A stretch of DNA of 64,000 nt from Prescottella agglutinans (GTDB lineage: Bacteria; Actinomycetota; Actinomycetes; Mycobacteriales; Mycobacteriaceae). The notes below the pieces were generated by a model. That model did no database searches, was not told the DNA's origin, and saw only the letters and a program-made list of their open reading frames with translations. Every line of letters starts with the position of its first letter. Position 1 is the first letter of the stretch. A program made the translations under genes and the position numbers. The DNA is taken from positions 496,001-560,000 of the forward strand of contig NZ_RKLP01000002.1 of NCBI RefSeq assembly GCF_004011865.1. The letters are read 5' to 3'. Positions 26,563 to 36,527 of this stretch are shown piece after piece.

Positions 26563-28107
26563 TCAGGCGAGTTCGCGCTTGAGGATCTTCCCGGTCGCGG
26601 TCATCGGCAATTGCTCGACGATCCGGACCTCACGCGGGTACTTGTAGCTCGCCATCCGCTCCTTCGACCAGGAAATCAGATCGTCGCCGGAGACCTCGAC
26701 ACCCGGCTGCGGGATGACGTAGGCGCGGACCTCCTCGCCGTGGCTCTCGTGTGGAACACCGATGACCGCGGCCAGCGAGACCGCCTCGTGCGTCATCAGG
26801 ACCTCCTCGATCTCGCGCGGATAGACGTTGAACCCGCCGCGCACGATCATGTCCTTCGCCCGGTCGACGATGTAGTAGAAGCCGTCCTCGTCCCGACGCG
26901 CGAGATCGCCGGTGCGGAACCACCCGTTCCGCACGACCTCTGCCGTCGCCTCGGGACGGCCGTAGTAGCCCTTCATCACGTTGTGGCCGCGGATGGCGAT
27001 CTCGCCCACCGCATCTGCCCCCTCCACGGTGTTCCAGTCCTTGTCGACCAGGCGGACCTCCACGCCCCACAGCGGGACCCCGATCGACCCGGGGCGCGGG
27101 GCCTGCTCGGGATCACTGAACAGGGCGGTCGGCGACGTCTCCGACAGCCCGTAACCCTCGAGGATCTGGACCCCGAACCGCTTGGCGAAGCGCTCGAGAA
27201 TCTCCACGGGCAGCGCCGCGCCCCCGGAGATGGCCTTGCGGAGATTCGCGGCGATCCGGTCGACGTCGACGGAGTCGTCGACCGCCCCCAGCAGGCCCCA
27301 GTACATCGTCGGCACGCCGGCGAACATGGTGATCGACTCGCGCTCCATGATGTCCAGCGCCGCGCGGGCCTCGAAGCGCGGGAGCAGCACGAGCGTCGCG
27401 CCCATCGAGAACCCGGCGTTCATGTTCATCGTCTGCCCGAACGAGTGGAACAGCGGGAGCGTGAGCAGGTGAGTGTCCGGGCGGCTCGGCGTGCTGTCGA
27501 ACAGTCGGTTGGCGGCGAGCGCGTTCATCACCATGTTCGACTGGCTCAACTCGGCGCCCTTCGGCTGGCCGGTGGTGCCGCTCGTGTACAGGATGACAGC
27601 GGTGTCCGTCGCCTCGCAGACCACGGATTCGAAGGTCGACGACTGGTCGGGCAGCACCGCCGACAGTCCGGTGATGCCGTCCCCGTCGCGCGCCCCGTCC
27701 GCGCCGATCACGAACATCGACTGACACGAAGGCACCTCGCGGAAGCCCTCCCGCCCGTACTCCCCGATCGGCAGATCCGGACCACCCTCGAAGCAGAAGT
27801 ACGCCTTGGCCCCGCAGTCCTGCAGGTGGTATGCGATCTCCCGCCCCTTCAACAGGACGTTGAGCGGTACGACCACGGCGCCAGCCTTGAGGATCCCGTA
27901 GTAGACGATCGGGAACCACGGCAGGTTGGGGCAGGAGATCGCTACCCGGTCACCGGGCTCGACCCCGGACGCGACGAGGAGATTGGCGATCTGGTTCGCG
28001 AGACCGTCGGTCTCCGCATAGGTGAACCGGTCGTCCCCCAGCACCAGCGCGTCGCGGCTCGGGTACTTTCGGGCCGAGTCTTCCAGGAACATGGACAGAT
28101 TGAGCAT
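26563..28107 (-). CDS. Acyl-CoA synthetase (AMP-forming, long-chain type)
   Basis: 514 residues of the ANL superfamily. The AMP-binding loop is ILYTSGTTGQPKG, the adenylate motif EGYGLSETSP, the hinge GWFRTGDLARRD and the C-terminal catalytic lysine TATGKILKREL. It activates a carboxylic acid to its CoA thioester with ATP. It is the last gene of the minus-strand catabolic operon, 34 bases after the hydrolase gene, and ends seven bases from the convergent ATPase. The acid it activates is unknown; the neighbours suggest an intermediate of the same pathway. Confidence 0.9.
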   Translation of the reverse strand: MLNLSMFLEDSARKYPSRDALVLGDDRFTYAETDGLANQIANLLVASGVEPGDRVAISCPNLPWFPIVYYGILKAGAVVVPLNVLLKGREIAYHLQDCGAKAYFCFEGGPDLPIGEYGREGFREVPSCQSMFVIGADGARDGDGITGLSAVLPDQSSTFESVVCEATDTAVILYTSGTTGQPKGAELSQSNMVMNALAANRLFDSTPSRPDTHLLTLPLFHSFGQTMNMNAGFSMGATLVLLPRFEARAALDIMERESITMFAGVPTMYWGLLGAVDDSVDVDRIAANLRKAISGGAALPVEILERFAKRFGVQILEGYGLSETSPTALFSDPEQAPRPGSIGVPLWGVEVRLVDKDWNTVEGADAVGEIAIRGHNVMKGYYGRPEATAEVVRNGWFRTGDLARRDEDGFYYIVDRAKDMIVRGGFNVYPREIEEVLMTHEAVSLAAVIGVPHESHGEEVRAYVIPQPGVEVSGDDLISWSKERMASYKYPREVRIVEQLPMTATGKILKRELA

Positions 28108-28141
28108 CGGGGCGTTCTCTCTCGGGCAGCGATCGTGAAGG

Positions 28142-28735
28142 TCAGTGGCTCGGCGCGGCCGCGGCGCCGATCGTGGCGAGCAGTTCGTCGAGGAGTTCGG
28201 TGGCGCGGGGCCACTCGCCGTAGCCGGAGGCCGGGTTGAGGTGACCGACCTCGCCGAGGTCGACGAGACGGCTGCCCCACGCGTGCGCCATGTCGACGAC
28301 GGCGGCGAAATCGGCCAGCGGGTCGTTGGTGCTGGCGGCGACGATGCTCGGGAACGCCAACGGGCCTCGCGGAACAGGGTTCCAGCCGTTCGCGTCGAGG
28401 TCCGGCAGGGTCGGATAGCCGGCGGGCAGCGGCGTGGAGAAGTCCGGCGGGGTGGCCAGGATCGCGCCTGCGACCGGGCGGTCGTGACGAGCGGCCCAGT
28501 GCACGGTGATCATCACCCCGGCACTGTGCGCGACGAGGACGACGGGACCGTCGATGTCCGCGAGGACGGCGTCCAGTGCCGCCACGCGGGCGTCGAGGCT
28601 GAGCTTGTCGTGCTCGAGCGGCGGGACGATACGGACCTTGTCCAGACCGGCGGCCAACAGGGTCTGCCAGTGGTCCTCGACGTGGTCACGCAGTCCGGGG
28701 ACGATCACGACGGTCGGGGAAACCGAGCTGCTCAA
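28142..28735 (-). CDS. RBBP9/YdeN-type alpha/beta-hydrolase
   Basis: About 197 residues. The TTG at 28735 was chosen because GGAGG lies seven bases upstream. The fold is the small serine hydrolase type: VVIVPGLRD near the start, nucleophile VLVAHSAGVM and a C-terminal VGHLNPASGYGEWP with the catalytic His. Members hydrolyse small esters; the substrate is unknown. A hairpin separates it from the cleavage enzyme gene upstream, so its expression may be lower than that of the first three genes of the operon. Confidence 0.82.
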   Translation of the reverse strand: MSSSVSPTVVIVPGLRDHVEDHWQTLLAAGLDKVRIVPPLEHDKLSLDARVAALDAVLADIDGPVVLVAHSAGVMITVHWAARHDRPVAGAILATPPDFSTPLPAGYPTLPDLDANGWNPVPRGPLAFPSIVAASTNDPLADFAAVVDMAHAWGSRLVDLGEVGHLNPASGYGEWPRATELLDELLATIGAAAAPSH

Positions 28736-28771
28736 GGCATTTCCTCCAAAGGATCTCGATGCGGACGGACG

Positions 28772-35078: not shown

Positions 35079-35118
35079 CCCAGCGACAGCCGAGACAGTC
35101 GGAGACGGAAAGGTACTC

Positions 35119-35883
35119 ATGAGCAAGATCTACGCATCGGCGGCCGACGCGGTCGCCGACATCCCCTCCGGGGCGTCCCTGGCCGTCGGCGGATTCGGAC
35201 TGTGCGGTATCCCCGACGTCCTGATTTCCGCGCTCGCCGCCGGCACCGCAACCGACTTCGAGGTCTTCTCGAACAACTGCGGCACCGACGGTCACGGCCT
35301 GGGAATCCTGCTCGAGGACAGGCGCATCCGACGGGTCACGGCGTCGTATGTCGGAGAGAACAAGGAGTTTGCCCGCCAGTACCTGTCGGGAGAGCTCGAG
35401 GTGGAGCTGACCCCCCAGGGCACGCTGGCCGAGAAGATGCGCGCGGGCGGAGCCGGGATCCCGGCGTTCTTCACCCCGTCCGGCGTCGGCACACCCATCT
35501 CCGAGGGCGGCCTGCCGTGGCGCTACGCCGCGGACGGGTCGGTGGCACTCGCATCGCCGCCCAAGGAGATCCGGACGTTCCGAGGCCGCGACTACGTCCT
35601 CGAGGAGTCGATCAACGCCGACTTCTCGTTGGTGCACGCACTGGTCGCGGACACCGAAGGCAACCTGGTCTTCAACAAGGCCGCGATGAACTTCAACCCG
35701 CTCGCCGCGATGGCCGGCCGGGTGTGCGTGGCCCAGGTCGAGGTGATCGTCGAGGCCGGGGAACTCGATCCGGAGCAGGTCCACCTGCCGGGCATCTTCG
35801 TCGACCGCATCGTGCACATCGGACAGCAGGACAAGCAGATCGAGAAGCGGACCGTTTCGGTCGCGAAGGAGGGCACACGATGA
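35119..35883 (+). CDS. scoA: 3-oxoacid CoA-transferase subunit A
   Basis: 254 residues, typical for the A subunit of succinyl-CoA:3-ketoacid CoA-transferase: [29 protein letters not shown] and the conserved FTPSGVGTP. Together with subunit B it transfers CoA from succinyl-CoA to acetoacetate. The ATG at 35119 has a GGAAAGG site. Its stop overlaps the start of subunit B by ATGA. The frame is open upstream only as a shadow of the MFS gene. Confidence 0.95.
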
Positions 35884-36527
35884 CCGCGGTGGTCGAGACC
35901 GTCGGATGGACGCGCGAGCAGATGGCCGCCCGGGCCGCGGAGGAACTCCGCTCCGGTGAGTACGTCAATCTCGGAATCGGTCTACCCACGCTGATTCCGA
36001 ACCATCTGCCCGACGGCGTCGAGGTGACGCTGCACAGCGAGAACGGCATCCTCGGCACCGGCCCGTACCCGACCGAGGACGAAGTCGATCCGGATCTGAT
36101 CAACGCCGGCAAGGAGACCGTGACGGTCAACGCCGGTGCGTCCTTCTTCGACTCCGCAACCAGCTTCGGCATGATCCGCGGCGGCCACATCGACACCGCG
36201 GTGCTCGGCGGCATGCAGGTCTCCGCCACCGGCGACCTGGCGAACTGGATGGTGCCGGGGAAGATGGTCAAGGGCATGGGCGGCGCGATGGACCTGGTCC
36301 ACGGCGCTCGGCGGGTCATCGTGCTCATGGAGCACACCGACAAGTCGGGAGCCTCCAAGGTCGTCGAGTGCTGCACTCTCCCACTGACCGGGCGGGGCGT
36401 GGTCCACCGCATCATCACCGACCTCGCGGTGATCGACGTGACCGATGCCGGTCTCGCACTTCGCGAATGCGCGCCGGGCGTGACCCCGGAGCAGGTGCGG
36501 GCGGCGACGGACGCGACCCTGCTCTGA
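35880..36527 (+). CDS. scoB: 3-oxoacid CoA-transferase subunit B
   Basis: 215 residues. The catalytic glutamate that carries CoA is Glu54 in LHSENGILG; other family features are [27 protein letters not shown] and [16 protein letters not shown] text near [14 protein letters not shown]. The coupled ATGA start guarantees equal amounts of both subunits. It is the last gene before a strong terminator. Linked with a beta-keto acid cleavage enzyme, its job is probably to activate the acetoacetate released by that enzyme. Confidence 0.95.

Follow-up and report, generated by a model that had tools for sequence, protein, structure and literature searches.

A conserved TauD-BKACE gene cluster in Prescottella agglutinans and its tentative reading as a sulfonate-catabolic regulon

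We analysed a stretch of 64,000 nucleotides of Prescottella agglutinans (assembly GCF_004011865.1, contig NZ_RKLP01000002.1, positions 496,001 to 560,000), called the window below, with positions counted from its first letter. The subject is a cluster of nine genes at 26563-36527, in which a protein of the beta-keto acid cleavage enzyme (BKACE) family is encoded beside a TauD-type dioxygenase. The original prediction, made from the letters alone, had named these genes and their families; all nine were found to be present and were confirmed with Pfam and NCBIfam models. Two features came in addition to it, namely the remnant of a CMD-family gene and a second BKACE gene elsewhere in the genome. 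The features of the cluster are as follows.

26563..28107, minus strand: acyl-CoA ligase (AMP-binding, FadD-like; PF00501, 308 bits)
28142..28723, minus strand: alpha/beta hydrolase of the Ser_hydrolase family (PF06821, 139.5 bits; start at 28723 or 28804)
28838..29893, minus strand: BKACE-family protein of a divergent clade, ~350 residues (PF05853)
29937..30842, minus strand: TauD-type Fe(II)/2-oxoglutarate dioxygenase (PF02668, 227 bits; relative of 5vn6; residue map)
30939..31916, minus strand: QOR-family oxidoreductase, relative of 2-haloacrylate reductase, 1wly (PRK10754)
32127..32141, plus strand: predicted AraC-type binding site TACCCTCACGGGACA, 0 mismatches to TACCCYYNCGGGACA; similar sites in relatives
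32228..32242, plus strand: second copy of the predicted site, TACCCTTGCGGGACA, 0 mismatches to TACCCYYNCGGGACA
32263..33300, plus strand: AraC-family regulator (start at 32263 or 32209; PF12625, Arabinose_bd, and PF12833, HTH_18)
33333..33347, minus strand: copy of the predicted site before the mfs/CoA-transferase unit, 2 mismatches to TACCCYYNCGGGACA
33498..33575, plus strand: broken remnant of a CMD-family gene, between araC and mfs (tblastn 53% over 30 residues, E 2e-6)
33708..35078, plus strand: MFS transporter (PF07690, MFS_1, 155.5 bits)
35119..35883, plus strand: 3-oxoacid CoA-transferase subunit A, CtA (TIGR02429, 229 against a cut-off of 128.5; Pfam CoA_trans)
35880..36527, plus strand: 3-oxoacid CoA-transferase subunit B, CtB (TIGR02428, 338 against a cut-off of 243.6; Pfam CoA_trans)

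The BKACE query used for the Pfam, NCBIfam and relative searches began at an internal methionine (28838-29770) and was N-truncated. It passed PF05853 with 192.4 bits (cut-off 24.8) and failed the NCBIfam model of the lysine-fermentation enzyme Kce, NF052387, with 120.4 against 382 bits. The QOR-family protein (QOR) carries the Pfam domain ADH_zinc_N, passes PRK10754 (370, cut-off 348) and matches the solved structures 1qor and 1wly with 306 and 281 bits, respectively. The AraC regulator scored below the cut-off of the QhpR model (193 against 250), and among the 25 NCBIfam models shown for the acyl-CoA ligase, none reached its cut-off. The hydrolase is possibly a thioesterase or an esterase, and the sole solved relative found was 3bdv (DUF1234).

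The gene order was found to be conserved. Relatives were collected by a BKACE scan of genome contigs, from which the best 80 of 173 loci were taken, and genes were tallied with tblastn at an identity of at least 35% in stretches of at most ~21 kb. TauD was present in 70 of the best 80 loci. These 70 contained QOR in all cases, AraC in 69, MFS in 67 and the hydrolase in 66; the CoA-transferase was present in 37, a CMD gene in 35, the ligase in 34 and acetoacetyl-CoA synthetase (AACS) in 3. The recurrence of TauD, QOR, AraC, MFS and hydrolase across the best 80 loci indicates that the order is not due to chance. A set of 61 relatives picked independently of BKACE gave the same result: at E values up to 1e-90, TauD was matched 15 times in 13 genomes, and 14 of these matches (one of them partial) lay within ~1 kb of a BKACE match. 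The original prediction, which a lack of conservation in relatives would have refuted, is supported on this point.

The order seen most frequently is QOR-TauD-BKACE-(MFS)-hydrolase-(CtA-CtB or AACS)-(ligase). The QOR-TauD-BKACE core, mostly with hydrolase and MFS, was observed in actinobacteria, Burkholderiales, Azoarcus and Novosphingobium. Among the matches listed, the closest named match of the BKACE was that of Rhodococcus triatomae (98%), and the cluster-bearing species include R. jostii and R. erythropolis (loci L052 and L056), both of which have common laboratory strains. In total, 106 loci were compared: 80 from the BKACE scan, 10 from a second set and 16 plasmid regions, the last including those of Paraburkholderia, Caballeronia, Cupriavidus, Azoarcus, Novosphingobium and Streptomyces (13 of 16 with TauD). 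TauD accompanies BKACE in 88 of them, and 18 hold BKACE only. The loci are not independent, as species and genomes repeat, and L108, L109 and L110 repeat L049, L027 and L065. No description of a TauD-BKACE cluster was found in the available portions of the literature; PMC12133276 served as background only.

The active site of the BKACE-family protein was inspected in an alignment of 108 rows. The analysis covered the His-x-His plus Glu metal site and the equivalents of Asp231 and Arg226 of Kce; these residues and Glu143 serve in Kce as metal ligands and active-site residues. The zinc site and the Asp (H59, H61, E276 and D277) are kept in 108/108 rows and R255 in 99/108. The position of the catalytic Glu143 is occupied by Gln (Q193) in 101/108 rows, and that of Tyr145, which is catalytic in Kce (PMC12871164), by Ser (S195) in 83/108. 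Five members of the SDR-MFS type have Ala at the Glu143 position, and three other actinobacterial members (L017-L019) have Phe at the Tyr145 position. In seven distant comparison BKACEs, Glu stands at the first position in six, and the second is Tyr in three, Phe in three and Asp in one. The clade also contains an insertion of ~13 residues after beta3, in which K110 is present in 106/108 rows and R117 and H118 in 108/108.

Judged from these residues, the label BKACE would apply here by domain only. The family assignment of the original prediction holds for the PF05853 domain and the zinc ligands, and fails at the two replaced catalytic positions. Likewise, the protein resembles Kce (2y7d) in its domain family, metal site, Arg and Asp, but matches it with only 131 bits in phmmer and differs at Glu143 and Tyr145. 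BsfD of flavophos biosynthesis (9zsc; PMC12871164) is a DUF849 member that also has an insertion after beta3 and has lost the catalytic Tyr. However, BsfD is a biosynthetic phosphonate enzyme with Phe at the Tyr position and Glu where the present clade has Gln, and with this Phe it performs a different chemistry (PMC12871164). A clade with such an altered active site offers a test of which residues the Claisen-type reaction needs.

The TauD alignment consisted of 88 rows, 87 from the loci and one from the window. H117, D119 and H277, which we take to be the Fe ligands, and R288, which we assign to the same Fe/2-oxoglutarate set, are invariant in 88/88 rows, and so are H86 and R292, the equivalents of H70 and R270 of EcTauD. 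The enzyme therefore shares the Fe/2-oxoglutarate site of taurine dioxygenase together with these two residues, but it scored below the cut-off of the taurine dioxygenase model PRK09553 (236.8 against 313), has changes at the positions of Y73 and N95, and contains a loop, 229-239, particular to its clade. One solved relative is 5vn6 (477 bits); phenoxypropionate dioxygenase and ScoE-type proteins are also among the solved relatives.

Outside the core, the commonest neighbour is a YeiH-family gene (PF03601), present near 21/88 TauD loci and 0/18 BKACE-only loci (Fisher p 0.02). The 21 cases comprise 18/70 TauD loci of the BKACE scan, 0/5 of the second set and 3/13 plasmids; the family was confirmed with Pfam for two examples, L114 and L115. 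Arrangements of the gene differ widely among the loci. In R. gordoniae (L032 and L115), yeiH overlaps the ligase gene by 4 bases, and in a Novosphingobium (L114), it starts 3 bases after mfs, so it lies within the operon in both. PF03601 occurs in 28/61 unselected relatives at about one copy each, from which we estimate ~0.2 chance matches in 88 stretches of 20 kb, compared with the 21 observed. Of the 13 unselected genomes that carry the TauD operon, four (G001, G008, G013 and G027) have PF03601 within ~13 kb of BKACE, where ~0.06 would be expected; in G008, it adjoins the partial TauD copy. YeiH is required for sulfite resistance in Salmonella (PMC12880088, where sulfite export by YeiH is not demonstrated). 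In the accessible text of PMC8557817, a YeiH and TauD proteins are named in a Rhodococcus, with no visible tie to the cluster. The linkage with YeiH points to sulfite release. The dioxygenase is of the TauD type, as originally predicted, and its neighbours do not point to ring opening.

The generic BKACE reaction converts a beta-keto acid and acetyl-CoA into an acyl-CoA and acetoacetate (PMC11961710). The CoA-transferase pair CtA-CtB was found near 42/88 TauD loci and AACS near 5/88, where it stands in for the CoA-transferase; the two were never found together at any locus. One or the other is counted at 48/88 TauD loci and 0/18 BKACE-only loci. Transferases of the PcaIJ/ScoAB type on their own are not specific for acetoacetate. 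That two enzymes of unrelated kinds can serve this one activation supports acetoacetate as the product, in line with the original proposal that acetoacetate is activated beside the BKACE.

The predicted AraC-type sites lie on both sides of araC. Over the whole window, the motif is not enriched (17 sites with up to three mismatches, 19.6 expected), and its weight comes from its perfect copies and its conservation only. With up to two mismatches, it was found in 19/52 araC/qor gaps of BKACE-scan relatives (mean of 0.2 in 30 shuffles), in 9/13 gaps on the mfs or CMD side (shuffle mean 0.13) and in 1/4 araC/BKACE gaps without QOR; as the window itself supplied the motif, matches in close relatives carry less weight. 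The shared site predicts co-regulation, and both transcription units are probably controlled through one AraC-type site, in keeping with the original prediction, which requires that the two sides be co-induced.

The window genome contains further BKACE copies. The second (L101) shows 99.4% protein identity; its region also encodes SDR, CMD and an ABC transporter, the last most like SsuA/TauC-type models and below their cut-offs. The third (L102, 83%) is accompanied by SDR, MFS and ligase. For the SDR and the ABC solute-binding protein, as for the hydrolase, no informative solved relative was found. Below, the TauD operon is called T and the SDR/ABC-transporter operon S. Four genomes that hold both were compared, namely the window genome, G002, G013 and P. 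defluvii (L101, L103, L105 and L024 compared with the window, L104, L106 and L030). In 4/4, the T and S copies of BKACE share 96.8-99.4% DNA identity and 94-99% identity at third positions; copies from different species agree in 69-84% of these positions, and in 88% for a single pair, that of R. oryzae and R. tukisamuensis. FastTree pairs the T and S copies by genome in 4/4, with support of 1.000. In the window genome, the homology ends at the edges of the open reading frame; in G002, G013 and P. defluvii, it continues for 20-26 bases upstream. The simplest reading of these data would be repeated gene conversion, in which BKACE alone is passed between the separate operons T and S; this would imply that it has one function in both. 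In addition, CMD, BKACE (66%), MFS, hydrolase and ligase are all present at locus L107, and SDR is found there where QOR-TauD would stand. Because the T and S copies are homogenised and L107 swaps SDR for QOR-TauD, one and the same beta-keto acid is probably supplied by TauD (together with QOR) and by SDR, at least as far as the S operon is concerned.

None of the three published BKACE settings considered accounts for the T operon. The lysine-fermentation setting was ruled out by the low score of the Kce model. The carnitine setting was ruled out as well, since no 3-hydroxyacyl-CoA-dehydrogenase-type domain, the type of carnitine dehydrogenase, was found when 19 window proteins from 16912-40492 were searched with Pfam (two called genes there lie outside the scan). 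In this, the original prediction was right about the two settings it knew; it had overlooked a third, the oxidation of deoxyribonate by SDR, BKACE and MFS in P. simiae and Burkholderia (PMC6365646). That cluster likewise combines BKACE with MFS and yields acetoacetate that needs activation, and its SDR supplies the beta-keto acid, as would the SDR operons described here (PMC6365646). Compared by gene content, not by sequence, the T operon differs in having QOR-TauD in place of the SDR, and no lactonase was named in it. An SDR beside BKACE is absent from the T operon and present beside the other two BKACE copies of the window genome, so the deoxyribonate setting was ruled out for T.

Taken together, we tentatively read the cluster as a carbon-catabolic regulon for an organic sulfonate, in which oxidative desulfonation would yield a beta-keto acid for cleavage by the BKACE; we consider this plausible and short of probable. 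The gene identities, their conservation, the shared site, the linkage with YeiH and the homogenised BKACE copies come from the sequences themselves; the substrate class, the position of the sulfur and each of the following reactions are what we infer, and the role of QOR is the weakest step. The MFS transporter would import an acid, and QOR, as a relative of 2-haloacrylate reductase, may reduce an unsaturated bond in it. TauD would hydroxylate the C3 that carries the sulfonate, upon which sulfite would leave and a beta-keto acid remain. The BKACE-family enzyme would transfer the C1-C2 unit of this acid to acetyl-CoA to give acetoacetate and an acyl-CoA. The CoA-transferase, or AACS in some relatives, would activate the acetoacetate, the hydrolase and ligase would deal with the remaining acid, and YeiH, where present, would remove sulfite. 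The AraC regulator would control both transcription units. In the 2-haloacrylate pathway, reduction also precedes removal of the hetero-group; a dehalogenase acts there and TauD would act here, and the parallel is of our own drawing. If the reading is true, the cluster is a genetic marker for a sulfonate-consuming pathway across soil actinobacteria and proteobacteria, and TauD chemistry, usually filed under sulfur scavenging, is tied to carbon catabolism. The whole may amount to a new route, with desulfonation by reductase and TauD to a beta-keto acid, a re-tooled BKACE clade (Gln/Ser, basic loop after beta3) producing acetoacetate, and a second, SDR-fed operon whose BKACE is kept near-identical by repeated gene conversion; in this full form, the proposal is possible but somewhat unlikely.

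Several observations weigh against the sulfonate reading. A 3-sulfo acid of the required kind is no obvious natural product, and QOR has no forced role. With Glu143 and Tyr145 replaced, the acetoacetate reaction of the BKACE is itself uncertain, and no acetoacetate activator was found in 40/88 TauD stretches, some of them short. In TauD, the positions of Y73 and N95, which we take to be the amine contacts of taurine dioxygenase, are changed: the first holds Leu, Val or Ala and in a single case Thr, and the second holds Glu (Glu113). The equivalent of H86 is also present in PlaO1, which is not known to be a desulfonase, so this residue is not diagnostic of desulfonation. TauD paralogues (54-65%) occur without BKACE nearby, so a beta-keto acid may not be the product of TauD in every case. 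For 67/88 TauD loci, including the window cluster, no YeiH neighbour was found (the one copy of the window genome is on another contig), and the YeiH contrast between locus types is only at p 0.02, with loci that are related. Nor is homogenisation general: of ten further within-genome BKACE pairs, nine are at 82-90% (R. opacus 88%, R. jostii 90%, R. tukisamuensis 84% and 82%, three T copies against SDR-MFS copies 82-83%, P. defluvii 82%, N. australiensis 82%), and the window T copy and its own SDR-MFS copy are among them. The sole homogenised pair of the ten is that of the T copy and the AraC-MFS-CMD copy in R. koreensis (99.1%).

Two other readings keep most of this gene set. TauD may strip another group (an ether, an amine or a sulfate ester) from C3, or oxidise C3, and so form the beta-keto acid, with YeiH being incidental or serving sulfate release. 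The TauD/TfdA family carries out several of these reactions, phenoxypropionate dioxygenase and ScoE-type proteins are among the solved relatives, Glu113 in place of N95 could suit a cationic substrate, and at most TauD loci no YeiH neighbour was found. On the other hand, the arrangements of YeiH are many and distinct, two genera have it inside the operon, and it is seen at none of the 18 loci without TauD. We regard a non-sulfonate substrate as somewhat unlikely. In the reversed order, the BKACE would act on a sulfonated beta-keto acid (e.g., 4-sulfo-3-oxobutyrate), the hydrolase would free sulfoacetate and TauD would desulfonate last. The insertion after beta3 with K110, R117 and H118 would agree with this order, as would the likeness of the S-operon transporter to SsuA/TauC-type models, below cut-off; in BsfD, the loop insertion after beta3 bears an Arg that contacts the phosphonate (PMC12871164). 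However, the 18 BKACE loci without TauD, eight of which have SDR, have no YeiH, so that TauD seems to be a second way of reaching the same keto acid. We regard the reversed order as improbable. As to the BKACE itself, the replaced residues and the different chemistry of BsfD would allow a reaction other than acetoacetate release; the retained zinc ligands, Arg and Asp, the Phe at the Tyr145 position of L017-L019 and the CtA-CtB and AACS neighbours speak against it, and we hold it to be rather unlikely.

Two more substrates were considered and rejected. Maleylacetate or 3-oxoadipate from sulfomuconate was prompted by CMD and the PcaIJ-type CoA-transferase; it is speculation, and no ring-cleavage genes, at which no search was aimed, were noted in the listed operons. 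For 3-oxovalerate, which would give propionyl-CoA, methylcitrate-cycle genes in one Caballeronia and polyhydroxyalkanoate (PHA) genes in some loci are not general enough. In that genome, Caballeronia grimmiae, prpB-prpC-acnD-prpF continue from the cluster (L112:6038-11998). Genes resembling those for PHA synthase and PHA depolymerase adjoin the cluster in the R. opacus group (L041, L045, L049 and L052) and BKACE-MFS in Caballeronia zhejiangensis (L118); L041 and L118 were scanned, and the other loci were assigned by clustering.

Some neighbouring genes were also recorded. Near the TauD paralogue of L133 lie related MFS and ligase genes, together with genes for an alpha/beta hydrolase and a protein of 196 residues; L130 has a similar layout, and the paralogues of L131 and L132 adjoin a Cupin_7 protein of the '2,4'-dihydroxyacetophenone dioxygenase family'. 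In G006, a broken BKACE remnant (L134:7852-8303) adjoins genes that look phage-like by eye. A beta-oxidation-like set with MaoC, two SDRs, thiolase and acyl-CoA dehydrogenase lies at 16912-21293 of the window, ~5 kb from the ligase gene, and in 9 loci, a member of the acyl-CoA dehydrogenase family is again found close to the cluster. Three similar frames of the window, at 7056-8279, 52314-53468 and 54041-55171, have the appearance of flavohaemoprotein-type globins by eye.

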